DNA from: Ruminococcus flavefaciens | Lineage (GTDB): Bacteria; Bacillota; Clostridia; Oscillospirales; Ruminococcaceae | Reading direction: 5' to 3' | NCBI GenBank assembly: GCA_902762855.1 | Contig: CACWPR010000014.1 | Coordinates: forward strand, 1-47,295 | DNA length: 47,295 bases | Shown: positions 25,657 through 47,275 of the stretch, piece by piece | How positions within the stretch are numbered: the first letter of the stretch is position 1 | Layout of the letters: every line of letters begins with the position of its first letter | The notes under the pieces: model-generated | The model's database searches: none | What the model was told of the DNA's origin: nothing | The model's input: the letters and a program-made list of their open reading frames with translations, nothing else | Made by a program: the position numbers and the translations under genes

Positions 25657-27075
25657 TCAGAGCTTGTTTATCTCTGTTCCCTGACGGGTCTCCTTGACTT
25701 CATATCCGAGTGCAGTTATCTTGTCACGGAGCTCATCAGCGAGGGCGAAGTTCTTTTCCTTACGTGCAGCCTTGCGCTGTTCAACGAGTTCAAGTACCTC
25801 AGCAGGGATGTCAGCGGCAGAGTTCTCTGCGGCATCAGCCTTTTCCTGCGCCTTCTTTATAAGGTCAAGACCCAGTACAGTGTCGAAGTCCCTGAGAAGA
25901 GCCAGCTTTGTAGAGGCGTTTGCACCGGATTTCAGTACGTCGTAAACTGCTGTTACAGCAAGTGATGTGTTCATGTCATTGCCAAGAGCGTCGTCGAAGG
26001 ACTTGCGGAGGCGGTCGTACTCAGTCTGGTCGATGTCTCCGGCAGCTTCCTTTGTCAGCGGAACTATCCTGTCGATGAGCTTATTGAAGGAAACAGCGGC
26101 ATTGTCCAGGTTCTCCCATGAGAACACCAGTGACTTCCTGTAGTGTGAGTTCAGGCAGAAGAAGCGGTATACCAGCGGGTCATAGCCCTTCTCTTCAAGG
26201 AGGGATACTGTCAGGAACTCTCCCTTGCTCTTGCTCATCTTGCCGGATGTGGTGTTCAGGTGGTGTACGTGGAACCAGTAATTGCACCATTTATGTCCCA
26301 GATAGGCCTCAGACTGAGCTATCTCGTTGGTGTGGTGGGGGAATGCGTTGTCTATTCCGCCGCAGTGGAGGTCCAGGTATTCGCCAAGATTCTTCATGCT
26401 GATGCATGAGCACTCGATGTGCCAGCCGGGGTAGCCGACACCCCAGGGAGACTCCCATTTGAGCTCCTGGTCATCGAATTTGGACTTTGTGAACCAGAGT
26501 ACGAAGTCTGCCTTATTGCGCTTGTTGCCGTCGGCCTCTACGCCTTCACGGACGCCGACTTCGAGGTCCTCCTCGCTGAGGTCACCGAAAACGTAGTACT
26601 TATCCAGCTTTGAAGTATCGAAGTAGATATTTCCGCCGGCCTCGTATGCGTAGCCCTTCTCCATGAGTGATGAGATGACCTTGATGAACTCGTCGATATA
26701 GGTAGTAGCAGGTACTACAACGTCGGGAGTCTTTATGTTGAGCTTAGCGCAGTCTGCAAAGAAAGCGTCGGTGTAGAACTTTGCTATCTCCATAACTGTC
26801 TTGTGCTCACGCTTTGCGCCCTTGAGCATCTTGTCGTCGCCGGTATCGCCGTCGCTGGTGAGGTGGCCTACGTCAGTGATGTTCATTACACGCTTTACGT
26901 CAAGTCCTGTGAAGCGGAGGTACTTTTCCAGTATATCCTCCATGATATAGCTGCGGAGGTTTCCGATGTGTGCATAGTGGTAGACAGTAGGGCCGCAGGT
27001 GTACATACCTACCTTGCCGGCCTCTCTGGGGATGAAGTCCTCTTTTTTATGTGAAAGGGAATTGTATAACTGCAT
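25657..27075 (-). CDS. cysS: Cysteinyl-tRNA synthetase
   Basis: 472 aa class I synthetase that charges tRNA-Cys. Start at 27075 (MQLYNS) follows AAAGGAG; the frame is open 12 codons upstream without a ribosome site. Zinc ligand and HIGH-type motif in TCGPTVYHYAHIGN (26-39), a Cys/His zinc site including GWHIECSCIS, and KMSKS near 270. The C-terminus holds the DALR and anticodon region. Third gene of a Cys T-box operon, where rising uncharged tRNA-Cys would raise its expression. Confidence 0.98.
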   Translation of the reverse strand: MQLYNSLSHKKEDFIPREAGKVGMYTCGPTVYHYAHIGNLRSYIMEDILEKYLRFTGLDVKRVMNITDVGHLTSDGDTGDDKMLKGAKREHKTVMEIAKFYTDAFFADCAKLNIKTPDVVVPATTYIDEFIKVISSLMEKGYAYEAGGNIYFDTSKLDKYYVFGDLSEEDLEVGVREGVEADGNKRNKADFVLWFTKSKFDDQELKWESPWGVGYPGWHIECSCISMKNLGEYLDLHCGGIDNAFPHHTNEIAQSEAYLGHKWCNYWFHVHHLNTTSGKMSKSKGEFLTVSLLEEKGYDPLVYRFFCLNSHYRKSLVFSWENLDNAAVSFNKLIDRIVPLTKEAAGDIDQTEYDRLRKSFDDALGNDMNTSLAVTAVYDVLKSGANASTKLALLRDFDTVLGLDLIKKAQEKADAAENSAADIPAEVLELVEQRKAARKEKNFALADELRDKITALGYEVKETRQGTEINKL

Positions 27076-27098
27076 GATATTTCTCCTTTTGTCGTTTT

Positions 27099-27482
27099 TC
27101 AGAAGTCCCATATATCCGGGGGGGCGTTTTTGATATTCAGCTTTGAGAAGTAGCCGAACATTACAAGAAATTCAGGTATTGTCCTGAGTCCGTCGCTGTA
27201 GTAGGCGGAGAGCCTTTTGCTGCTGTCGGGGATGTCCTTGTACTCAGGAGGACAGCCAAAGTGCCAGTCAGCGGTGAGGCTGTTGAAGCTGATGCGGAAG
27301 AAGTCCCGGACGTCCATGCCAGGAAGTCCTGTGAGAGCCAGGAGCATACTATGCTCTCCGGCCTCTTCAAGCGGAGCCACTACAGCGGTAAAGCCGTCGT
27401 GGGAAATGGCAGCTATCAGCGGCTTGTCGCTGCGTACTGCATCATCCACCACCTTGTCAGAGGGGTATCTTATCATGTCCAT
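27099..27482 (-). CDS. Unknown protein between cysE and cysS
   Basis: 127-aa soluble protein that I do not recognise. No signal peptide, helix or metal motif. The sequence begins MDMIRYPSDKVVDDA and ends KNAPPDIWDF; the middle (LIAAISHDGFTAVVAPLEEAGEHSMLL) looks like a beta-alpha-beta element, and there is no cysteine except one in FGCPPEY. AAGGAG precedes the start. It is only 10 bp after cysE and 23 bp before cysS, so it is co-expressed under the T-box and may act in cysteine or sulfur use (context only). Confidence 0.75.
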   Translation of the reverse strand: MDMIRYPSDKVVDDAVRSDKPLIAAISHDGFTAVVAPLEEAGEHSMLLALTGLPGMDVRDFFRISFNSLTADWHFGCPPEYKDIPDSSKRLSAYYSDGLRTIPEFLVMFGYFSKLNIKNAPPDIWDF

Positions 27483-27492
27483 AGGCTGCTCC

Positions 27493-28158
27493 TTATATGC
27501 CTGAGCCCTGGGTCAGGTCGGCTATCTCCTTCTTGAGCTCTGCTATTTCAAGCTGCATACGGCAGAACTCCAGGGAGACAGGGTCCGGAATGTGTATCTG
27601 GTCGATGTCCTGGGTAACGGTGTGCTCCGGGAGCTTTTTGCCGTTCATACGGACTACTCTTGCCGGAACTCCCACAGCAGTGGAGTTGTCGGGGATAGCA
27701 TTGAGGACAACTGCATTTGCGGCTATCTTAACGTTGTTGCCCACCTTGAACGGTCCCAGCACTCTTGCTCCGGCGCCTACGAGGACGTTGTTGCCGAGTG
27801 TGGGGTGACGCTTGCCTTTTTCCTTACCGGTACCGCCGAGGGTAGCGCCCTGATAGATAAGGCAGTTATCTCCTATGACGGTAGTTTCACCTATAACCAC
27901 GCCCATGCCGTGGTCGATGAAGAGACCCTTGCCTATTTTAGCGCCGGGGTGTATCTCGATACCGGTCTTGTGCCTTGACCTCTGTGATATCATCCTGGCT
28001 ATGGTGAACATCCTGCGCTTATAGAACCAGTGAGCTATACGGTAGCTGCGTATAGCCGAAAGGCTGGGATAGGTCAGAAGTATCTCAAAGGCATTTCTTG
28101 CCGCAGGGTCACGCTCTTTGATAAGTCTGATGTCCCGTCGTAACTGTTTAAAAAACAT
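27493..28158 (-). CDS. cysE: Serine O-acetyltransferase
   Basis: 221 aa. Makes O-acetyl-L-serine from serine and acetyl-CoA, the first step of cysteine synthesis. Helical N-terminal part (1-65), then left-handed beta-helix hexapeptide repeats (about 68-170) with HPGAKIGKGLFIDHGMG, including the catalytic His pair, and GATLGGTGKEKGKRHPTLG. A further C-terminal helix (about 190-221) is more than in the shortest forms. First gene after the T-box leader. No cysK is in the window. Confidence 0.96.
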   Translation of the reverse strand: MFFKQLRRDIRLIKERDPAARNAFEILLTYPSLSAIRSYRIAHWFYKRRMFTIARMISQRSRHKTGIEIHPGAKIGKGLFIDHGMGVVIGETTVIGDNCLIYQGATLGGTGKEKGKRHPTLGNNVLVGAGARVLGPFKVGNNVKIAANAVVLNAIPDNSTAVGVPARVVRMNGKKLPEHTVTQDIDQIHIPDPVSLEFCRMQLEIAELKKEIADLTQGSGI

Positions 28159-28188: not shown

Positions 28189-28431
28189 AAAAAACCTCCG
28201 GAGAACAAAGTCTCCGGAGGCGCAGTAAGCACGGTCCCACTCCGATTTATAGCTCGATGCCCGTAACGAGGGAAAACGTCGGAGAATACTTTAAGGCAGA
28301 AGCCCTGTTCCTCCCCGAAGCTGACAGCCGCACTTCACTATCTCCGCCTGTACCGTCACACCTGCCCGGCACTCTCTGAAAGGCTGCGAAAAAGCTACTC
28401 TGACTGCTACGCTTTTTATCATCATATTCTA
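28189..28431 (-). promoter_or_regulatory. T-box leader (probably tRNA-Cys) of cysE operon
   Basis: Minus strand, between the promoter and cysE. Stem I features near AGAGAGTGCC and GGCAGGTGTGACGG; a candidate specifier TGC (Cys) in GTGAAGTGCGG; T-box element GGAGTGGGACCGTG around 28232-28246; and a terminator with 10-bp stem CCTCCGGAGA / TCTCCGGAGG plus six T's (28220-28189). Cys identity is supported by the genes controlled. The tRNA-end-binding bulge reads TGGG instead of the TGGA that would pair perfectly with U73 of tRNA-Cys (G-U possible). With the promoter and the terminator at 28523 it fills the 436-bp gap 28159-28594. Confidence 0.88.
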
Positions 28432-35880: not shown

Positions 35881-37086
35881 TCATGCGTTAAAGTTGAGCA
35901 CCTTGAATCCCTCAGCGGCAAGAGCCTGCTTTATCATTTCGATGTGCTCATAGTTTCGTGTCTCAAGAACTATCCTCAGGTAGCAGCCGTTGACTGCAGA
36001 GCCCTCGTTAGCTCTTTCGTGGTGTATGGATGTGACGTTTCCGCCCATCTGTGCGATTATCCGTGATACGTCCATGAGCTGGCCGGGCTTGTCGATGAGC
36101 TCTATCATCATAGAGTAGGACCTGCCGGACATGAGGAGGCCACGCTTTATCACACGGGAGAGGATGGTTACGTCGATATTTCCGCCTGAGAGCAGGCAGA
36201 CAGCCTTTTTGCCCTTTATGGGCACCTTGTTGAACATTGCCGCTGCCACCGATACGGCGCCTGCACCCTCAGTGACCAGCTTCTGCTGTTCCATAAGTGC
36301 GAGTATAGCGGCTGATATTTCGTCGTCACTGACGGTCACTATGTCGTCCACGTACTCTGAGATTATCCGGAATGTGTTCTCGCCCGGCTCCTTTACGGCT
36401 ATGCCGTCAGCGATAGTGGAGACCTGGTCAAGACGCTCAATGTGGTTGTCACGGATGGAGTTGAACATACTCGGCGCTCCGGCGGCCTGTACTCCGTATA
36501 CCTTTATATTGGGGTCAAGGTTCTTTATGGCATAAGCCACACCGGAAATGAGTCCGCCTCCTCCAATGGGGACGATGACAGCTTCAAGGTCCGGTATCTG
36601 CTCCAGGAGCTCCAGACCGATAGTGCCCTGTCCGGCAATGACATTCTCGTCGTCGAAGGGGTGGATAAAGGTATAGCCGGATTCGTCACGCTGCCTGAGA
36701 GCCTCGGCATAGGCATCGTCATAGACTCCGTCAACAAGGCAGACTTCAGCGCCGTAGCTCTTTGTGGCTTCGACCTTTGAAATTGGAGCACTGTCCGGCA
36801 GGCAGATAATGGACTTTATGCCGTTCTTTGCTGCTGCAAGGGCAACTCCCTGAGCGTGGTTGCCTGCTGAACAGGCTATTACTCCGCGTGACTTCTCCTC
36901 CTCTGAGAGCTGAGACATCTTGTAATATGCTCCTCTTACCTTGAAGGAGCCTGTTATCTGAAGATTCTCGGTCTTGAGGAATATCTCTGAATCCGGGTTT
37001 ATCTTTGGTGCGTGTATTACGTCAGTCTCCCTGATGACATTTTTAAGTATATACCTTGCATGGTATATTTTATCAAGAGTAAGCAT
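35881..37086 (-). CDS. ilvA: Threonine ammonia-lyase with one ACT domain
   Basis: 401 aa. Converts threonine to 2-oxobutanoate and ammonia, the entry to isoleucine. PLP lysine K49 in GSFKVRGA, SAGNHAQGVA, GGGGLISG phosphate loop and a Ser/Cys-site LLSGGNID. C-terminal ACT domain (about 325-401: YSMMIELIDKPGQLMDVSRII). This is the single-ACT type of many anaerobes, shorter than the double-ACT E. coli IlvA; the short form can be biosynthetic or catabolic, and the context favours biosynthesis. Confidence 0.94.
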   Translation of the reverse strand: MLTLDKIYHARYILKNVIRETDVIHAPKINPDSEIFLKTENLQITGSFKVRGAYYKMSQLSEEEKSRGVIACSAGNHAQGVALAAAKNGIKSIICLPDSAPISKVEATKSYGAEVCLVDGVYDDAYAEALRQRDESGYTFIHPFDDENVIAGQGTIGLELLEQIPDLEAVIVPIGGGGLISGVAYAIKNLDPNIKVYGVQAAGAPSMFNSIRDNHIERLDQVSTIADGIAVKEPGENTFRIISEYVDDIVTVSDDEISAAILALMEQQKLVTEGAGAVSVAAAMFNKVPIKGKKAVCLLSGGNIDVTILSRVIKRGLLMSGRSYSMMIELIDKPGQLMDVSRIIAQMGGNVTSIHHERANEGSAVNGCYLRIVLETRNYEHIEMIKQALAAEGFKVLNFNA

Positions 37087-37098
37087 ATTTTTCTCCTT

Positions 37099-38313
37099 TT
37101 AGCCTTTGGCCGAAAGCTCCATATCGCTTCTGAGCTGGTCCACGAACTGCTTTGCAGTCCTGGGGGACCTGCCGTTTCCGGAGGATATGGCGAACTGCTC
37201 AGCTTTCAGAACTATCTCTTCCTCAGGCAGGTCTATGCCATGACTTCTGGCAAGCTCTGCGGCAATGGCGGTATAAGCCTTTTTGTCAGGACGGCTGAAA
37301 TTTACTCTCAGTCCGAAACGAGCCGAAAGTGAAAGAGTCTCCTGCATAGTATCGTTGCGGTGTATGTCGTCGCCCTCACGGTCCGAGAAGGATTCACGGA
37401 CAAGGTGGCGGCGGTTGCTGGTGGCATAAATGACCGTATTTCTTGCCCTTGCGGACACTGAGCCTTCCAGAGTTGCCTTCAGTGCACCGAAGCAGTCCTC
37501 ACCTGAGGTGAAAGAAAGGTCATCTATGAATATTATGAATTTCAGCGGATTTCCGCTTATCTCGTCGATTATTGCCGGGATGTCCCTGAGCTGGTCCTTG
37601 GTTATCTCTATGAGCCTGAGTCCCTGGCCGGAGTACTCGTTGACCAGAGCCTTGACTGTGGAGGACTTTCCTGTGCCCGCATCTCCGTAGAGGAGAGCGT
37701 TAAGAGCCGGCCTGCCCTCTACAAGAGCAAGGGTATTGTCCATGACAGCCTTCCTCTGTGTCTCATAGCCGTAGAGCTCAGAGAGCTTCTGCTCGTCCGG
37801 GTATCTTACCGGGACTATGCTGCCGTCACGGAATATGAACATACTGTTCCCGGCGTATTTTCCGTAGCCGTACTGTCCGATAAGGCGGACTCTTTCCATA
37901 TAGCTCCCGATAATATCCGCCGGAGAGTTCTCCCAGCGTGGGATGTAGCCGTCGTAGTCCATATCCTCTATAAAGTCATCAGGTGTGAGCTCTGAGAGCT
38001 CCTGTATGAACTGGAGCTCATGGAGGAGACACTCCTGTACCAGCAGGGGAGGCTTCTTATCCTTTGCGGTCTTGACGATGAAGAAGTTCTCATCCTCAAG
38101 GGTTATCCTGAGCAGATGCTCAGTTATATCAACGGTGCCGCTCTCGTAAAGTGCAGAGACGAAGTCTGCGTAGTCTGCGATAAAGTTTGCCTGGTCCTCA
38201 CAGTCTGAGCCCAGCAGCACCATAAGTCTGCGGAAAGCCTCGTCCTGTGCGAGACCTCTGAATATTACCAGAAGGTCACGTTTTTTGCAAAGAGCGGATA
38301 TTTTGCTGTTCAT
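37099..38313 (-). CDS. DUF815-family AAA-type ATPase
   Basis: 404 aa. An N-terminal helical region (1-185), then an ATPase core with Walker A GDAGTGKSS (about 212-220), Walker B FIIFIDDLSF and a sensor region YATSNRRHL, matching the DUF815 family, whose role is unknown (a moderate resemblance to helicase-loader-type AAA proteins is known). It starts immediately after the leuB stop (TAA-ATG) with AGAGGTG inside leuB, so it is coupled to leuB. No link to amino-acid synthesis is known. Confidence 0.85.
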   Translation of the reverse strand: MNSKISALCKKRDLLVIFRGLAQDEAFRRLMVLLGSDCEDQANFIADYADFVSALYESGTVDITEHLLRITLEDENFFIVKTAKDKKPPLLVQECLLHELQFIQELSELTPDDFIEDMDYDGYIPRWENSPADIIGSYMERVRLIGQYGYGKYAGNSMFIFRDGSIVPVRYPDEQKLSELYGYETQRKAVMDNTLALVEGRPALNALLYGDAGTGKSSTVKALVNEYSGQGLRLIEITKDQLRDIPAIIDEISGNPLKFIIFIDDLSFTSGEDCFGALKATLEGSVSARARNTVIYATSNRRHLVRESFSDREGDDIHRNDTMQETLSLSARFGLRVNFSRPDKKAYTAIAAELARSHGIDLPEEEIVLKAEQFAISSGNGRSPRTAKQFVDQLRSDMELSAKG

Positions 38314-39387
38314 TTAAAGCACCTCTGCGATTTTTTCTGTCATTTCAGTGCAGGTCAGAGGATTTCCCTCTGTACTGCCCATAAGGTCAGCAGTGCGGCA
38401 GCCTGCTTCCAGCACCTTGTCTACTGCGTTTTCTATAGCGTCCGCCTCGGCTGAAAGACCGAAGGAATAGCGGAGCATCATTGCGCCTGAGAGTATGGTG
38501 GCAATGGGGTTTGCCTTGTTCTGGCCTGCAATATCGGGAGCAGAGCCGTGTATAGGCTCATACATACCCCTTGATGTTTCTCCCAGTGAAGCGGAAGCAA
38601 GCATACCTATAGAGCCGGTTATCTGTGAGGCCTCATCGGAGAGGATGTCTCCGAACATATTTGATGTGACGATAACGTCGAACTGTTTGGGGTCACGGAC
38701 GAGCTGCATTGCGGCATTGTCCACGAACATATCGCTGTATTCCACCTCCGGGTACTCCTCTGCAAGGCTGTGCATGGTCTTTCTCCAGAGCCGTGAGGAT
38801 TCCAGGACGTTTGCCTTGTCGATGCTGCAAACACGCTTGCTGCGCTTCATAGCGGTATCGAAGGCCACACGGCCTATGCGCTCTATCTCAGTGACGCTGT
38901 AGGCCTCTGTGTCGAAGGCTTCCTGACCGTATTTACCCTCACGGTATCCACGGTCTCCGAAGTAGATGCCGCCTGTGAGCTCCCTGACTATCATGATGTC
39001 AAAGCCCTTGCCGACTATCTCGTCCTTCAGGGGAGATGCGGCTCTCAGAGCCGGATAGAGCTTTGCGGGGCGGAGGTTAGTGAAGAGTCCGAGTGCTGAG
39101 CGTATGCCCAGAAGGGCCTTTTCCGGACGGTTGCTGCCGGGCTGGTCATCCCACTTGGGACCGCCTACTGCTCCGAGAAGAACACTGTCGCTGGCGAGGC
39201 AGCCGTCAATGGTCTCCTGAGGGAGGGGGATGCCGGTCTCGTCAATGGCACATCCTCCGATGAGGTAGGGGGTGAAGCTGAATTTATGTCCGAACTTAGC
39301 TGCCGTTTTTTCAAGTACTGCAACGGCACTGTCCACTATCTCAGGACCTATGCCGTCACCTCTCAGTAAGGCTATATTGAATTCCAT
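38314..39387 (-). CDS. leuB: 3-isopropylmalate dehydrogenase
   Basis: 357 aa, normal length. Oxidises and decarboxylates 3-isopropylmalate to the keto acid precursor of leucine (NAD-dependent). Clear signatures: [44 protein letters not shown], catalytic Lys in IDKANVL, and [24 protein letters not shown]. 12 bp after leuD. Confidence 0.97.
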
Positions 39388-39399
39388 AAAAGCACCTCT

Positions 39400-39894
39400 T
39401 TACTTTATAACGCCTCTGGCTATTGACTCCATAAGTCCGCCGTTTTCGATTATTTTCTGCACGAACTCCGGGAAGGGAGCGGTCCTGAACTCCTGACCTG
39501 TTGTGAGGTCACGGATGATGCCGTTATCCAGGTCTGCTTCGACCTTATCACCCTCGGCAATGGCCTCGGCTGCTTCGGGACACTCCACGATAGCCAGACC
39601 GATATTTATGGAGTTGCGGTAGAAAATACGGGCAAAGCTCTTGGCTATGACCAGTGAAACTCCGCTTGCCTTTATGGCTATGGGAGCGTGTTCACGGGAT
39701 GAGCCGCAGCCGAAATTCCAGCCGGCAGCAATGATGTCACCCGGCTGTACACGGCTGATAAAGGACTTGTCCAGGTCCTCCATGCAGTGTGAAGCCAGCT
39801 CTTTGTGGTCACTGGTATTGAGGTATCTTGCAGGTATTATAACGTCGGTGTCGATGTTGTCTCCGTATTTGATTATATTTCCGGTGTATCTCAT
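39400..39894 (-). CDS. leuD: 3-isopropylmalate dehydratase small subunit
   Basis: 164 aa. Start at 39894 (MRYTGNI) overlaps the leuC stop (ATGA); upstream in-frame codons belong to leuC. Motifs [30 protein letters not shown] and a C-terminal [12 protein letters not shown]. Works with LeuC to isomerise 2- to 3-isopropylmalate. The short form is typical of the LeuC2/LeuD2 group of clostridia and archaea. Confidence 0.96.
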
Positions 39895-41159
39895 TTCTCC
39901 ATTACCTCCCACGGACTTGTTATCTTGCCGGTCAGAGCGCTTGCGGCGGCAGTGGCAGGACTTGCCAGATAAACTTCCGAATCAACGTGGCCCATACGTC
40001 CCACGAAGTTGCGGTTGGTGGTGGTGACGGCCCTTTCTCCGGCGGCAAGGATGCCCATATATCCGCCCAGACAGGGGCCGCAGGTGGGAGTTGAAACGAC
40101 AGCTCCGGCCTCAATGAAGGTTCTGAGCAGTCCCTCCTCCATAGCTTCAAGGTAGATGCGCTGTGTGGCCGGGATGACGATGACTCTTACATTTTTGGCG
40201 ACTTTGCGTCCTCTGAGTATCTCAGCGGCAGTGCGGAGGTCCTCGATGCGTCCGTTAGTGCAGGAGCCTATGACTACCTGGTCTATCTTCACGTCGCCTA
40301 TCTCGCTGAAAGTCTTTGCATTTTCGGGCAGGTGAGGGAAGGCAACTGTAGGCTCTATCTCAGAGAGGTCGATATTTATGACCTCATCGTACTCAGCATC
40401 CGGGTCAGCGGAGTATATTTCAGGCTCTGCACCGCCGTGTTCACGGATGTAGCTGAGAGTCTTTTCGTCCACCTCGAATATACCGTTCTTTGCTCCGGCC
40501 TCAATGGCCATATTCGCAATGCAGAGACGGTCGTCCATAGAAAGTGAGGAAAGTCCCTCACCGGTGAACTCCATGGACTTGTACAGTGCTCCGTCAACGC
40601 CTATTTTTCCGATGATGTGGAGTATGACGTCCTTTCCGGAGACATATTTTCTGAGCTTTCCTGTGAGCACGAACTTTATAGCAGAGGGAACCTTGAACCA
40701 CGCCTTGCCGACAGCCATTCCGCAGGCCATGTCAGTGGAGCCTACACCGGTGGAGAAAGCTCCCAGAGCTCCGTAGGTACAGGTATGAGAATCTGCGCCT
40801 ATCACGGCATTTCCGGCTGTGACCAGACCTTTTTCCGGCAGGAGGGCGTGTTCGATTCCCATTTCACCCACGTCGTAGAAATGGGTAATGTCCTTCTCAC
40901 CGCAGAAGTCACGGCACATACGGCACTGTTCAGCGGCTTTTATGTCTTTATTCGGAGCAAAGTGGTCCATTACCATTGTGACTTTATTATTGTCGAACAC
41001 GCTGTCTTTACCGAGCTTTGCGAACTCCTTGATAGCTACCGGGGAGGTAATATCGTTGCCGAGGACGAGGTCCAGGTCAGCGAGGATGAGCTGTCCTGCC
41101 TGAACGGAGCCAAGTCCTGCATGAGCCGCAAGTATCTTCTGGGTCATTGTCATTGCCAT
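39891..41159 (-). CDS. leuC: 3-isopropylmalate dehydratase large subunit
   Basis: 422 aa aconitase-family enzyme holding a 4Fe-4S cluster. Start at 41159 ([13 protein letters not shown]), with AAGGA upstream; a further ATG at 41168 touches the ribosome site. Cluster cysteines appear in [11 protein letters not shown] and [34 protein letters not shown] is also clear. The 420-residue length fits the LeuC2 type. 58 bp after the GNAT gene. Confidence 0.96.
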
Positions 41160-41217
41160 GTTTATCATTCCTTTTGGTGAAATAGTGGGAGGCTGTCTGG
41201 TGATGTCAGCCTGCCTG

Positions 41218-41793
41218 TTATTTATTTTTTATATCATTATAGTTCACAACATCCGGCTGATTGCTGAAATGGTTCCCTATTATCTTTTCTGCCCATATCA
41301 CATCGTACCACCTGCCGAACTTATATCCGCATTTGTGGAACTGTCCGACGCTTTCATAGCCCATGTGCCTGTGGAAGCCTATGCTGTTCCGGTCAAGGTA
41401 CTGGTCATTTTCTTCCTCCGGCACTGCTATGCAGGCATAGAGATTTGTGACTCCCATTCTGCTGAGGATGTCCTCCAGCTCTGTGTACAGGAGCTTTCCT
41501 ATGCCGCAGTTCTGGTAATTCTTATCGGTGTAGACAGTGAGCTCCGCAGACCAGTCATAGGCTCTGCGGCCGTTGTTGAAGGGCCCAGCACAGGCATAGC
41601 CTACGGGGACTCCCTCGGTTTCCGCAATGACAAAGGGGTACTTTTCAAGGGTATCGCTGATGCGCTTCCTGAACTCCTCCTCTGACGGCACCTCATATTC
41701 AAAGGTAACAGCGGTATTCTTAACATAATAGGCATATATTTTCAGCAGGGCAGCGGCATCCTCCGGGGAGGCCTTTCTTATCAGCACTTTCAT
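41218..41793 (-). CDS. GNAT family N-acetyltransferase
   Basis: 191 aa. GNAT fold with [12 protein letters not shown] at the start, the acetyl-CoA loop [16 protein letters not shown] (Q/RxxGxG/A-like) and NxxxxxFxxxxGYE-like ([12 protein letters not shown]) near 142-153. It resembles phosphinothricin acetyltransferase-like proteins ([17 protein letters not shown]), which acetylate small amines. Substrate unknown. It sits inside the BCAA gene set between ilvD and leuC. Confidence 0.88.
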
Positions 41794-41811: not shown

Positions 41812-43476
41812 TCATCTCTTGTTGATTATAGCACCCTTATCCGCAGATGATACCTGCTGTGCGTAGCGTCTGAGGTAGCCGGTGATGTTCTCCTTGCGCT
41901 TGATAGGCATAGTCTTTCTGCGCTCTTCAAGCTCCTCGTCGGAGACTTCAAGGGTAATTGAGTAATTGGGGATGTCGATAGAGATGATGTCTCCGTCCTT
42001 GACATAGGCGATAGTACCGCCGTTTACAGCCTCAGGGGAAACGTGGCCGATAGCGGCTCCACGGGTAGCGCCTGAGAATCTGCCGTCAGTGATGAGGGCA
42101 ACTGTTGAGCCGAGGCCTGCGCCCTGTATAGCGGAGGTAGGCGAGAGCATCTCTCTCATTCCGGGACCGCCTGCGGGGCCCTCGTAGCGGATGACTACAA
42201 CATCGCCTGCCTTGATGCCGCCTTCGTAGATGACCTTGATAGCTTCTTCCTCGCTGTCGAATACACGGGCAGGGCCACGGTGTACCAGCATTTCGGGAGC
42301 GACTGCGCTTCTCTTGACAACGCATCTGTCGGGGGCAAGGTTGCCTTTGAGGACTGCGATGCCGCCTGTCTCGCTGTAGGGATTATCAATTGGACGGATT
42401 ATCTCAGGGTCTCGGTTCACGCATCCCTCGATGTTCTCGCCCACGGTCTTTCCTGTGCAGGTCATGCAGTCTGTGTTGATGAGTCCCTTTTTATTGAGCT
42501 CGTTCAGAACAGCGTAAACACCTCCGGCCTCGTTGAGGTCCTCCATATAAGTGTGGCCTGCGGGAGCAAGGTGACAGAGATTAGGAGTTCTGGCACTTAT
42601 CTCGTTTGCCATGTCAAGATTTATGGATATCCCGCACTCGTTTGCTATAGCAGGCAGGTGGAGCATACTGTTAGTTGAGCATCCCAGAGCCATGTCGGCA
42701 GTAAGTGCGTTCTGGAATGCCTTTTCGGTCATTATGTCAAGAGGGCGGATGTTCTTCCTGTAGAGCTCCATTACCTGCATACCGGCCTGTTTAGCCAGCT
42801 TAATGCGCTCGGAGTATACAGCAGGGATAGTTCCGTTGCCCTTGAGTCCCATGCCCAGTACCTCTGTAAGGCAGTTCATGGAGTTAGCGGTGTACATACC
42901 TGAGCAGGAGCCGCAGGTAGGACAGGCCTTGTTCTCGAACTCCTCCACATCCTCAGCGGACATCTTTCCGGCAGTATATGCGCCTACAGCCTCGAACATA
43001 GAGGAAAGGCTGGTCTTTTTGCCCTTTACGTGACCGGCCAGCATGGGGCCGCCGCTTACGAAAACAGTGGGGACATTGATACGTGCAGCCGCCATAAGGA
43101 GTCCGGGGACGTTCTTATCGCAGTTGGGCACCATTACAAGTGCGTCGAAATGGTGTGCAAGAGCCATACATTCAGTTGAATCGGCAATGAGGTCACGGGT
43201 GACCAGTGAGTACTTCATTCCTTTATGCCCCATAGCGATGCCGTCGCAGACAGCGATAGCCGGGAAAACAACGGGCGTGCCGCCGCCCATGGCAACACCG
43301 AGCTTGACAGCCTCGACCAGCTTGTCGATGTTCATATGTCCGGGAACGATCTCGTTATAGGAAGAAACGATACCTACGAGAGGACGCTTCATTTCCTCCT
43401 TTGTAAAGCCGAGAGCGTTGAAAAGTGAACGCTGAGGTGCCTTGTCAGCACCTTCACAGAAGAAATTGTCGCTCAT
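41812..43476 (-). CDS. ilvD: Dihydroxy-acid dehydratase
   Basis: 554 aa. Dehydrates dihydroxy-acids to the keto acids of valine and isoleucine; Fe-S enzyme with PNCDKNVPG and [16 protein letters not shown], plus [19 protein letters not shown]. Length and motifs are normal. AGGTG precedes the start. A 157-bp gap with hairpins separates it from ilvC. Confidence 0.97.

Positions 43477-43633: not shown

Positions 43634-43634
<1 letters not shown>
43574..43634 (-). other. Two further hairpins after ilvC
   Basis: CCCCGCCC / GGGCGGGG (43582-43589 / 43595-43602), extended by ACTTC / GAAGT outside it (43574-43608), and ATAATACC / GGTATTAT (43618-43634) touching the ilvC stop codon. Neither is followed by a T-run. 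Confidence 0.8.
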
Positions 43635-44674
<1,040 letters not shown>

Positions 44675-44736: not shown

Positions 44737-45237
44737 TTATTTAACGGTTTTGAGACAATTCTCGCCTCTCTCGATGGCGACTATGCCGGTACGGCACATC
44801 TCCATGATGCCGTAGGGCTTGAGGAGCTCGATGAAAGCGTCTATCTTTGAGGTCTCGCCGGTGAGCTCGCATACGAGTGCTGTAGGGGAGTAGTCCACTA
44901 TTTTGGAGCGGAATATCTCAACAGCGGTCATGATGTCCTGGCGGTATTCAGCCTTGTTCCTCACCTTTATAAGAAGGAGCTCACGGATGACGGTCTCATT
45001 CTTGTTGAGGACCTCCACCTCACGGACATCGTGGAGCTTCTGGAGCTGCTGGACTATACGGTCCTTTATCTCGTCATCGCCCCGGAAGGCAACGGTGATG
45101 CGTGAGAATCCGCTGGACTCAGTTTCTCCCACAGTGAGACAGTCAATGTTGAAACCTCTTCGGGTGAACATTCCTGACACTCTGGAGAGAACGCCTGAAA
45201 CGTTGGATACTATGACTCCGATAACATACTGATCCAT
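44737..45237 (-). CDS. ilvN: Acetolactate synthase small (regulatory) subunit
   Basis: 166 aa. N-terminal ACT domain (YVIGVIVSNVSGVLSRVSGMFTRRGFNIDCL) that binds valine in this family, and a C-terminal ACT-like half (about 80-160). Typical IlvH/IlvN length. Activates and confers feedback inhibition on the adjacent catalytic subunit. 9 bp after ilvB. Confidence 0.96.
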   Translation of the reverse strand: MDQYVIGVIVSNVSGVLSRVSGMFTRRGFNIDCLTVGETESSGFSRITVAFRGDDEIKDRIVQQLQKLHDVREVEVLNKNETVIRELLLIKVRNKAEYRQDIMTAVEIFRSKIVDYSPTALVCELTGETSKIDAFIELLKPYGIMEMCRTGIVAIERGENCLKTVK

Positions 45238-45246
45238 AATGTCACC

Positions 45247-46980
45247 TCACTTTATCTCTGTGATTATGTCGTCTATAGAGCCGCCGGGCGGGAGCATAGG
45301 AAGCACGAACTCATCGCAGTCCACAACGCAGTCAAGAACGAAGGGACCCTTGTGAGCAAAGGCTTCCTTAGCAGCCTCCTCAAGCTGCTCAGCGGTAAAG
45401 CAGCGTCTGCCCTCGGCTCCGAAGGCCTCAGCCAGCTTTACGAAGTCGGTCTTTCTGCTGAGTGTGGTGTTTGAGTAATGCTTGTCGAAGAAGAGAGTCT
45501 GCCACTGACGGACCATGCCCAGAACACCGTTGTTCATGATAACTATAACAAGGGGAGTTTCCTGGGTAACGGCAGTAGCCAGCTCGTTGAGGTTCATGCC
45601 GAAGCTGCCGTCTCCTGTGAAGAGGACGGTGTGCTTTCCGGCAGCGGAAGCGCCTATGGCAGCGCCCATGCCGTAGCCCATAGTTCCCAGACCTCCGCTT
45701 GTGAGGAAGGTACGGGGCTTTTTGAGGGGGTATCTCTGAGCTGCCCACATCTGATGCTGACCTACGTCGGTGACTACAACAGCGTCTCCGGCATGGCTGC
45801 TGATGATGTCCACTATGTCATAAGGGCGGAGCCTCTGGTCGGCAGGGAGACCTGTCTTGTCACAGGGAGCGCTGCAATTTCCGCAGTCCTTGCCATAGGA
45901 CTTGCTGAGAGCCTGTTCGGTGCGGAGCCTTTCCTCCTCACGGAGCCCTGCGATGCGCTTCTGCCATTCCGGACGTTCCTTTTTGGTGACAAGTTCAGTG
46001 AGTCTTGCAGCAGCGTCCTTTATATCGCCCTTGACAGCCAGGTCTGCGGGGATGTTTTTGTGGAGCTCAGCTCCGTCTATATCAATGTGTATCAGCTTGA
46101 AATTCTGAGCAAAGCGGTTTTTGTTTCCGGTAGCTCTGTCGCTGAACCTTGCGCCCAGAGTGATTACCAGGTCAGCCTCGTCCTCTGCAACGGAGGATGC
46201 GTAGTGGCCGTGCATACCCTGCATACCCAGGAATTTTGGATGTGCGGAGGGAACTGCGGAGAGTCCCATGAGTGAGCATCCCATAGGTGCGTCTATTTTT
46301 TCGGCCAGGGCGATGAGCTCATCGGAGGCTTTTCCGGCGATGATGCCGCCGCCAAAGTAGATATACGGCCTTTCAGCCTTGTCGATGAGAGCGGCAGCCT
46401 GTTCCAGCTTGTCATCAGAGGCGAAGGGCAGAGGATAGGGTATCACGGGCTGAGCCTTTGGCTCAAACTCGCACTTTGCCACCTGAACGTCCTTGGGGAT
46501 ATCCACCAGGACAGGTCCGGGACGGCCGGATTTTGCTATCTTGAAGGCCATGCGGAGGGTATCCGCAAGTTCTCTTATATCCTTGACTATGAAGTTGTGC
46601 TTGGTGATAGGCATAGTCACACCGACTATATCCACCTCCTGGAAGCTGTCTCTTCCGATGAGGCCGCAGGGAACGTTTCCGGTAATAGCCACCATGGGGA
46701 CTGAGTCCAGAAAAGCGGTAGCGATGCCGGTAACAAGATTAGTAGCACCGGGTCCGGATGTAGCGATGACCACACCCACCTTGCCGGTAGCTCTTGCGTA
46801 GCCGTCGGCAGCGTGAGCGGCGCCCTGTTCATGAGCGGTGAGGATATGGTCGATTCGGTCACGGCAGAGGTAGAGCTCATCGAAGAGGTTTATCACCTGT
46901 CCGCCGGGGTAACCGAAAACAGTGTCGCAGCCCTGTTCTATCAGGGTCTCGACAACGATTTTAGCTCCTGAAATCAACAT
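45247..46980 (-). CDS. ilvB: Acetolactate synthase catalytic subunit
   Basis: 577 aa. TPP enzyme that joins two pyruvates, or pyruvate and 2-oxobutanoate. Catalytic Glu in LTAHEQGAAHAADGYARATG, FAD/central domain, and the TPP motif GDGSFGMNLNEL with NNGVLGMVRQWQ. Unusual: a Cys cluster C366-x2-C369-x3-C373 (CGNCSAPC) just before the C-terminal TPP domain, not a standard feature of the family. Preceded by a leader peptide and attenuator. Confidence 0.97.
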   Translation of the reverse strand: MLISGAKIVVETLIEQGCDTVFGYPGGQVINLFDELYLCRDRIDHILTAHEQGAAHAADGYARATGKVGVVIATSGPGATNLVTGIATAFLDSVPMVAITGNVPCGLIGRDSFQEVDIVGVTMPITKHNFIVKDIRELADTLRMAFKIAKSGRPGPVLVDIPKDVQVAKCEFEPKAQPVIPYPLPFASDDKLEQAAALIDKAERPYIYFGGGIIAGKASDELIALAEKIDAPMGCSLMGLSAVPSAHPKFLGMQGMHGHYASSVAEDEADLVITLGARFSDRATGNKNRFAQNFKLIHIDIDGAELHKNIPADLAVKGDIKDAAARLTELVTKKERPEWQKRIAGLREEERLRTEQALSKSYGKDCGNCSAPCDKTGLPADQRLRPYDIVDIISSHAGDAVVVTDVGQHQMWAAQRYPLKKPRTFLTSGGLGTMGYGMGAAIGASAAGKHTVLFTGDGSFGMNLNELATAVTQETPLVIVIMNNGVLGMVRQWQTLFFDKHYSNTTLSRKTDFVKLAEAFGAEGRRCFTAEQLEEAAKEAFAHKGPFVLDCVVDCDEFVLPMLPPGGSIDDIITEIK

Positions 46981-47040: not shown

Positions 47041-47070
47041 TAAAAAACCTCCGGGCATTCCGCCGGAGGT
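47041..47070 (-). terminator. Attenuator terminator before ilvB
   Basis: ACCTCCGG (47070-47063) pairs with CCGGAGGT (47054-47047), 8-nt loop, then six T's. It lies after the leader peptide stop and 60 nt before ilvB, so it would end transcription unless an antiterminator forms. Confidence 0.92.
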
Positions 47071-47135
47071 AAAACTTCGTTGCCAATAGTTGCAGAAATA
47101 CAATCATCAGGCAAGAGAGCCATTCGGGCAGAATG
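47056..47135 (-). promoter_or_regulatory. Antiterminator pairing of ilv attenuator
   Basis: On the RNA, CATTCTGCC (47135-47127, inside the leader reading frame) is complementary to GGCGGAATG (47064-47056, end of the terminator 5' arm plus loop): 9 pairs, one of them G-U. Forming it would unmake the terminator. Confidence 0.7.
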
Positions 47136-47214
47136 AAAAGAGACTGCAGTCAGAGACGTTAATGACTGCGCCTATGATAATGACGATACCGGAAGAAATG
47201 TAGACCGATCTCAT
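47107..47214 (-). CDS. ilv leader peptide (35 aa)
   Basis: ATG at 47214 with AAGGAG nine bases before, stop TGA at 47109-47107 followed by a second TGA. Starts MRSVYISSGIVIIIGAV. Ile at 6, 10, 12, 13, 14 and 18; Val at 4, 11, 17 and 20; Leu at 25 and 34. Ten branched-chain codons fall within 17 positions. A ribosome waiting at these codons would leave the antiterminator half in codons about 27-30 uncovered, while one reaching the stop would cover it. Low Ile or Val would thus raise ilv expression. No start-overlapping gene is disturbed. Confidence 0.85.
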   Translation of the reverse strand: MRSVYISSGIVIIIGAVINVSDCSLFSFCPNGSLA

Positions 47215-47246
47215 TATGCTTAGCTCCTTACTGATAATATATAGTT

Positions 47247-47275
47247 ATTGTATCACTTTATCGAAATAAAATCAA
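47247..47275 (-). promoter_or_regulatory. Promoter of the ilv leader and BCAA genes
   Basis: TTGATT (47275-47270), 17-bp spacer, extended -10 TGATACAAT (TACAAT 47252-47247). Transcription would start about 25 nt before the leader ATG. Confidence 0.8.

Follow-up and report, generated by a model that had tools for sequence, protein, structure and literature searches.

The window analysed here is a whole stretch of 47,295 nucleotides from Ruminococcus flavefaciens (contig CACWPR010000014.1 of assembly GCA_902762855.1), whose minus strand carries a row of branched-chain amino acid (BCAA) biosynthesis genes that begins with ilvB. The genes of that row are as follows, in window coordinates.

45247–46980, minus strand: ilvB, acetolactate synthase large subunit, proposed as the first gene controlled (TIGR00118, 677 bits; cutoff 538)
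44737–45237, minus strand: ilvN, acetolactate synthase small subunit
43634–44668, minus strand: ilvC, ketol-acid reductoisomerase
41812–43476, minus strand: ilvD, dihydroxy-acid dehydratase, separated from ilvC by a 157-nt gap
38314–41168, minus strand: leuC, leuD and leuB, on the same strand as ilvB
35881–37086, minus strand: ilvA, threonine ammonia-lyase, on the same strand as ilvB

We infer that ilvD, leuCDB and ilvA are co-transcribed with ilvBNC. Terminator-like sites between 35800 and 47000 number nine, which is only the level found in shuffles (mean 9.1). Two other genes stand within the ilv-leu row: an ArsN1/phosphinothricin-type acetyltransferase-like gene (41218–41793, minus strand; below the NCBIfam cutoffs) and a gene at 37099–38313 (minus strand), the product of which has weak AAA/DnaA-like family matches.

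Upstream of ilvB, near the end of the contig, lies a short open reading frame with its own expression signals; the genome contains no second close copy of ilvB.

47247–47275, minus strand: candidate promoter, TTGATT-17-TACAAT with a TG ahead of the −10 element (9/12 promoter-like match)
47224–47229, minus strand: Shine-Dalgarno (SD) sequence of the leader, AAGGAG
47107–47214, minus strand: leader peptide ORF of 35 codons, translated as MRSVYISSGIVIIIGAVINVSDCSLFSFCPNGSLA, with its TGA stop codon at 47109–47107

An earlier note, made from the letters of this DNA alone, had described a 35-codon frame with an AAGGAG site and a promoter of its own, containing six Ile and four Val codons within residues 4–20 and followed by an intrinsic terminator. 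Each of these elements is present, on the minus strand (the note had left the strand unstated), and the translation MRSVYISSGIVIIIGAVINVSDCSLFSFCPNGSLA contains exactly that number of Ile and Val residues in that interval. When the 315-nt stretch upstream of ilvB was shuffled with preservation of its dinucleotides, only 1 of 20,000 shuffles yielded an ORF of at least 20 amino acids with an SD site and an equal number of Ile and Val codons (within 17 residues); the Ile/Val content of the leader is not a product of chance. Promoter-like sites occur within 90 nt upstream of the leader in 72 of 79 relatives, versus 12 of 79 single shuffles, a count made without the window's own leader, as fewer than 90 nt of the stretch lie upstream of it. 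An SD-like core (broad pattern) precedes 79 of 80 leaders, of which 78 start with ATG and two with GTG. The predicted fold of the window's leader also pairs its SD region (approximately 47238–47223) with a stretch at the end of the ORF (approximately 47124–47104, minus strand), a modelled pairing that could shut off re-initiation on the leader.

Conservation of the leader frame across the genus

We identified ilvB, at the cut-off used, in 119 of 125 genomes of the genus. Two of these (G031 and G106) were left out because the match lacked the beginning of ilvB, and one genome (G097) contributed two loci, giving 118 upstream regions that represent 117 genomes. Of these regions, 81 carry a leader and 37 do not. 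A terminator follows 80 of the 81 leaders; that of L014 was missed by the terminator finder, yet the region was matched by our covariance model (E 1.5e-17). The first selection of leaders used a peptide pattern demanding Ile or Val near codons 11–18 (after manual correction of L031 and L027 and removal of L079), and 74 of 80 leaders were then aligned (alignment A1), leaving out two duplicates (L006 and L052) and four divergent sequences (L076, L100, L114 and L118). Since the peptide pattern itself asks for Ile and Val, the frame and codon counts were repeated on relatives selected by a covariance model, R1, that covers the RNA only from the end of codon 14 onward. Forty of the 74 A1 sequences, picked by eye for diversity, served to build R1, which so descends from leader-bearing sequences.

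At E ≤ 1e-5, R1 matches 79 of the 118 regions (52 of 58 plus 27 of 60), comprising 78 of the 81 leaders and one further locus, L101; the divergent leaders L100, L114 and L118 fall below the threshold. The L101 match (L101:738–867, 55 bits) lies before ilvB and includes a terminator and the hairpin termed P1 below, with no open frame having a start codon and SD site; it is possibly a decayed or re-coded leader. A search of 297 genomes of the family with R1, in which 11 candidates were scored per genome under strict filters, returned 24 matches at E ≤ 0.01. Strong matches (at least 46 bits) were restricted to five genomes, all of the genus, and the others scored approximately 27 bits or less; we take these weak matches for bare terminators, except for one located directly upstream of ilvB in G129.

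Among the 79 relatives selected by R1, the leader frame is open, with a start codon and ribosome binding site, in 78, as compared to none and one of 79 for the other two frames. Codons 10–14 encode Ile or Val at 314 of 395 positions (79.5%) when read in the leader frame versus 2 and 3 of 395 when read in the others, and codons 11, 12 and 13 do so in 76, 77 and 75 of the 79 sequences, respectively. The Ile/Val run and its frame, which the earlier note had expected to find kept in close relatives, are therefore conserved. The distance from the start codon to codon 17 is divisible by three in every one of the 74 A1 sequences, a result due in part to how the leaders were picked; it ranges from 36 to 66 nt and is 51 nt in 63 of them. 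The 36-nt case is L064 as read from an inner ATG, and an in-frame ATG is present upstream of it.

The substitutions point in the same direction. In codons 10–14 of A1, pairs of codons differing by one base are synonymous in 2263 cases, exchange Ile, Leu and Val codons for one another in 592 and are of other kinds in 674, while the corresponding figures for codons 5–9 are 1589, 145 and 2927; these figures count pairs of related sequences rather than events, and the selection of A1 leans towards an Ile/Val reading. Up to the end of P1, Ile and Val make up 21.1% and 16.2% of residues in A1 and Leu only 2.2%; the rarity of Leu indicates a sensor for Ile and Val.

Conservation of the first half of a hydrophobic peptide would also be expected if the ORF encoded a small functional protein (such as a membrane protein) and the terminator were unrelated to it. 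We consider this very unlikely. The second half of the peptide shifts frame in 12 of 74 A1 sequences, where the segment termed region 2 below is read in another frame while its letters, and thus the RNA, are kept; a terminator stands behind 80 of 81 leaders; and the peptide has no match in Pfam (E up to 10) or in NCBIfam and PHROGs (E up to 1).

Alternative helices and a proposed attenuation mechanism

The RNA of the leader contains the following elements.

47141–47173, minus strand: hairpin P1 over codons 15–23/24 (A1 columns 94–103 with 116–126), proposed RNA polymerase pause hairpin
47127–47135, minus strand: region 2, CATTCTGCC, 5' strand of the antiterminator, codons 26–29
47080–47114, minus strand: small stem TTGCC/GGCAA, situated in the antiterminator loop immediately ahead of the leader stop codon
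47056–47064, minus strand: region 3, GGCGGAATG, 3' strand of the antiterminator, overlapping the 5' arm and loop of the terminator
47047–47070, minus strand: intrinsic terminator, ACCTCCGG-CGGAATGC-CCGGAGGT, followed by a U tract at 47046–47038

The terminator in the window is a hairpin of eight pairs (47070–47047) followed by TTTTTATTT. Across A1, 93.8% of its cells are paired, with both-side changes at 7 of 10 pairs; for P1 the corresponding values are 91.2% and 6 of 10. The antiterminator, taken together with the small inner stem, is paired in 91.4% of cells, and its seven-pair core in 96.5%, with both-side changes at 4 of 7 pairs. Support for the small stem is weaker (82.8% of cells paired and both-side changes at one of four pairs, in a four-pair version). 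For P1, the antiterminator and the terminator, none of 500 shuffles reached the observed paired fraction, number of doubly changed cells or covariation score, although such shuffles do not remove the relatedness of the sequences; versions of the three helices slid out of register were 24–59% paired. By other measures the signal is less distinct: P1 is not unusual in its doubly changed pairs (95 of 500 shuffles as high) or pair types (359 of 500), nor is the antiterminator in its pair types (130 of 500), and slid versions of the antiterminator contain up to 19 doubly changed cells versus the 20 observed.

The antiterminator and terminator share A1 columns 226–228 and 238 and are therefore mutually exclusive. 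In an alignment-free duplex search, the best partner of the 5' half of the terminator was region 2 in most of the 80 leaders. The best antiterminator duplex was equalled by at most 10 of 100 shuffles in 65 of the 80, and by more than 10 of 100 in the other 15; in L009, L011 and a clade comprising L017, L018, L022, L024 and L026, the antiterminator uses a segment around codon 21 instead. For RNA ending before the 3' arm of the terminator, forced folding placed the antiterminator within 0.5 kcal/mol of the minimum energy in 53 of 74 leaders. In the complete RNA the terminator was the more stable by a median of 4.3 kcal/mol (range −17.0 to 14.3 over 74 leaders); the window's own forced terminator energy used 7 of 10 pairs, its register being different, and the weight is placed on the set. 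In one clade, the SD sequence of ilvB can pair over 5–8 bp with a ‘TCCTT’ of P1.

Covarying helices are also a property of riboswitches, and a motif upstream of Corynebacterium ilvB (ilvB-II) was, according to PMC10272879, first considered a candidate ppGpp riboswitch. We nevertheless judge it highly improbable that the leader is a metabolite- or ppGpp-sensing riboswitch with an incidental short ORF. The frame and the Ile/Val identity of its codons are kept upstream of P1, where an aptamer would not need them, and no large, conserved aptamer-like core is seen. The comparison with Rfam suggested by the earlier note gave no family at its gathering score within the window, and the matches at the leader itself are poor and to unrelated families; if the ilvB-OMG and ilvB-II motifs are among the Rfam models, this result extends to them.

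The placement of the coding and structural elements relative to each other was also measured across A1. Between the end of the last Ile or Val codon and region 2 there are 10–28 nt, the distance being 19 nt in 44 of 74 leaders. In all 74, the stop codon of the leader frame falls within an interval that opens 15 nt ahead of region 2 and closes at region 3, as compared to 108 of 148 cases for the other two frames, and it follows region 2 in all but L086 and L087. The distance from the last well-kept pair of P1 to column 136 is 11 nt in 64 sequences and 10 nt in the remaining 10. Spacings of 10–11 nt resemble those of hairpin-stabilised RNA polymerase pauses. This spacing suggests that P1 acts as a pause hairpin rather than as one that competes with the antiterminator; there is no overlap between P1 and region 2 that would point to the classical 1:2 role.

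The region thus comprises a translatable ORF with a ribosome binding site ahead of a biosynthetic operon, conserved control codons, a terminator before ilvB, and an antiterminator that excludes the terminator and is weak or shifted in part of the set. We believe the best explanation for this arrangement, with a probability of roughly 0.9, is a ribosome-mediated transcription attenuator that responds to charged tRNA-Ile and tRNA-Val and controls the ilvB operon. As judged by comparison of the relatives, the coding frame, control codons, alternative helices and stop codon position on which that reading depends are all conserved.

Such an attenuator would operate as follows. As RNA polymerase transcribes the leader, P1 would probably make it pause close to region 2 until the arrival of a ribosome. 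Under a shortage of Ile or Val, that ribosome would stall on codons 4–20 and melt P1, leaving region 2 (codons 26–29) free to pair with region 3 as it emerges; the terminator would then not form, and ilvBN and ilvC would be transcribed, with readthrough probably extending to the downstream ilvD-leuCDB-ilvA genes. If Ile and Val are plentiful, the ribosome would reach the stop codon, between regions 2 and 3, where it would either cover region 2 or occupy the antiterminator loop, allowing the terminator to form. A terminating ribosome positioned in the loop would presumably block antiterminator pairing by its bulk, as judged from the general dimensions of ribosome footprints.

A long-range pairing beyond the terminator

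Inspection of the sequence following the U tract revealed a segment, GTCAGAGACGT, that is the exact complement of the leader letters ACGTCTCTGAC. We term this potential pairing P4.

47149–47159, minus strand: 5' strand of P4, ACGTCTCTGAC, codons 18–22, in the loop and 3' arm of P1
47027–47037, minus strand: 3' strand of P4, GTCAGAGACGT, immediately after the U tract

Among the 80 leaders, 24 have a P4 score of at least 23 when each sequence is paired with itself, a level attained by cross-pairing in 0.3% of cases among the other 56 leaders and in 1.8% among all dissimilar pairs. In fourteen of the 24 the helix is almost the same (CGTCTCTGAC and its complement); these prove little on their own, since cross-pairing among them scores equally. 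The helix is changed in L023 (17 bp), L029, L091, L100, L114 and L118, for each of which its own pairing is the best of the group, and L009 and L011 possess their own 15-bp form; these differences between the sequences indicate compensatory changes in some relatives. In A1, P4 accompanies a long P1 loop in 20 of 48 sequences and a short P1 loop in none of 26.

Because the 3' segment of P4 is transcribed only after readthrough, the pairing should not participate in the termination decision. We regard as possible, though unlikely, a reading in which the leader carries a second, post-termination switch acting through P4 on the readthrough mRNA. The leader codons in P4 (18–22) would be those that a stalled ribosome covers or neighbours. 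With plentiful Ile and Val, P4 would close a domain containing the attenuator, leading to decay, RNase processing or lower translation of ilvB; with Ile or Val scarce, a stalled ribosome would hold that domain open. If this were correct, P4 would superimpose post-termination control on a classical attenuator and might make the leader a variant of that class.

The possibility that the leader RNA acts in trans through P4 was considered separately and rejected. Searching the genome of the window with the P4 pattern, allowing up to two mismatches, gave 41 forward and 35 reverse matches, fewer than the 74 and 69 obtained with a reversed-pattern control, and thus no sign of other P4 targets.

T-box leaders and comparison with known systems

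T-box leaders are present in all 125 genomes of the genus at E ≤ 0.001, with 123 genomes exceeding the family cut-off. In the genome examined here leuA lies on a different contig (C125:35–1570, minus strand) and has a T-box just upstream (C125:1752–2016, minus strand). Despite this abundance, and the presence of T-boxes before ilvB in 10 of 40 loci from other genera, there is next to no chance that the leader is itself a T-box reading tRNA-Ile or tRNA-Val directly: the only match in the window (RF00230) lies at 28213–28418, before cysE, with none at the leader; none reaches the gathering score in 40 loci of the genus (36 leaderless and four with leaders); and the T-box core pattern is absent within 600 nt upstream of ilvB in 118 of 118 regions. 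The element at 28213–28418 (minus strand) is upstream of cysE (27493–28158), with cysS nearby (25657–27111); with 82.9 bits it falls short of the gathering score set by Rfam (93), and it is presumably a cysteine T-box.

No Rfam family reached its gathering score in 36 of the 37 leaderless upstream regions (L110 being the one outside the scan). Up to 3.6 kb further upstream was viewed in 20 of the 37, and in 18 of these an ORF with a LeuA-type C-terminus lies upstream on the ilvB strand, directly or with genes between; the naming as leuA was tested with profiles for two (L318 and L334), and that of leuC and leuD for L331. A T-box at the gathering score is found on the ilvB strand in 12 of the 20, and a thirteenth match (L333) is on the other strand. 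In L322, L326, L327, L330 and L331, the leuA-type ORF is at or near the edge of the stretch, so that a T-box before leuA would not be visible. Within the genus, the choice of sensor therefore seems to follow gene order, a view that rests on 20 leaderless relatives. In the present genome this suggests a division of labour between an Ile/Val peptide attenuator for ilvBNC and its neighbours and a T-box for leuA; if the link to gene order holds, the genus offers a good natural series for the study of RNA-sensor swapping.

In other genera of the family, ilvB was found at the cut-off in 75 of 197 genomes. Three of these belong to the genus and were left out, and 67 of the remaining 72 loci were examined for leader ORFs, and 40 of these 67 were scanned for T-boxes (the 10 with a T-box before ilvB at the gathering score are those mentioned above). 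Five of the 67 (L167, L169, L180, L181 and L220, picked by eye) have an ORF rich in Ile, Leu and Val together with an SD site and a terminator-like hairpin; since 37 of the 67 have a terminator-like site within 450 nt, the hairpin by itself is weak evidence. L181 is similar to L100 and L118, two of the divergent leaders. The remaining four, which come from four other genera, look unrelated and are candidate independent peptide attenuators; the peptide of L167, for example, includes MFYNSLCLAGLVLLVIILVGIIVITGG.

Leader-peptide attenuators of BCAA operons are classical, with those before the BCAA genes of E. coli and Salmonella (ilvGMEDA and ilvBN) among them. The leader described here has in common with those a short ORF rich in codons for the pathway products, mutually exclusive antiterminator and terminator, and the BCAA genes that follow. 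Unlike them, its conserved control codons are hardly ever Leu, region 2 forms part of the ORF, the stop codon falling in the antiterminator loop, and the peptide has no Pfam match. In its control codons, which are those of Ile and Val and not Leu, the present leader departs from the E. coli ilvGMEDA leader to which the earlier note had compared it.

Peptide attenuators have also been described or predicted outside E. coli and Salmonella. The ilvBNC and ilvB-II leaders of Corynebacterium likewise have a BCAA-codon uORF before ilvB, a terminator and an antiterminator (PMC10272879, PMC11857589). They differ in belonging to a different phylum and in having a uORF usually of 15–17 residues, as compared to 35 codons here; furthermore, their first hairpin is described as an anti-antiterminator that competes with the antiterminator, whereas P1 and region 2 of the present leader have no overlap (PMC10272879, PMC11857589). 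The ilvD attenuator of S. aureus likewise controls a BCAA operon in a Firmicute by means of a leader peptide, with no T-box, but is Leu-responsive, precedes ilvD and acts with CodY, while the present leader is Ile/Val-rich and precedes ilvB (PMC5794164). PMC9413887 predicts peptide attenuators of his genes in Eubacteriales and Bacillus, and PMC2965389 does so for hisS-type genes in bacilli. The his leaders of Eubacteriales, Erysipelotrichales and Bacillus are also predictions in T-box-rich Firmicutes, though with histidine codons before his or hisS-type genes rather than Ile and Val codons before ilvB (PMC9413887, PMC2965389).

The earlier note had considered a peptide attenuator notable in a Firmicute. 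This holds only in part, as peptide attenuators are supported in S. aureus and predicted elsewhere in Firmicutes; T-boxes do occur throughout the genus. Among the open-licence literature matches listed, none describes a leader peptide for BCAA genes in Ruminococcus. The kind of regulator is already known, also in Firmicutes, and this instance of it matches no Rfam, Pfam or NCBIfam model; its significance is that Ruminococcus, where T-boxes abound, would also possess a peptide attenuator of the classical amino-acid type.
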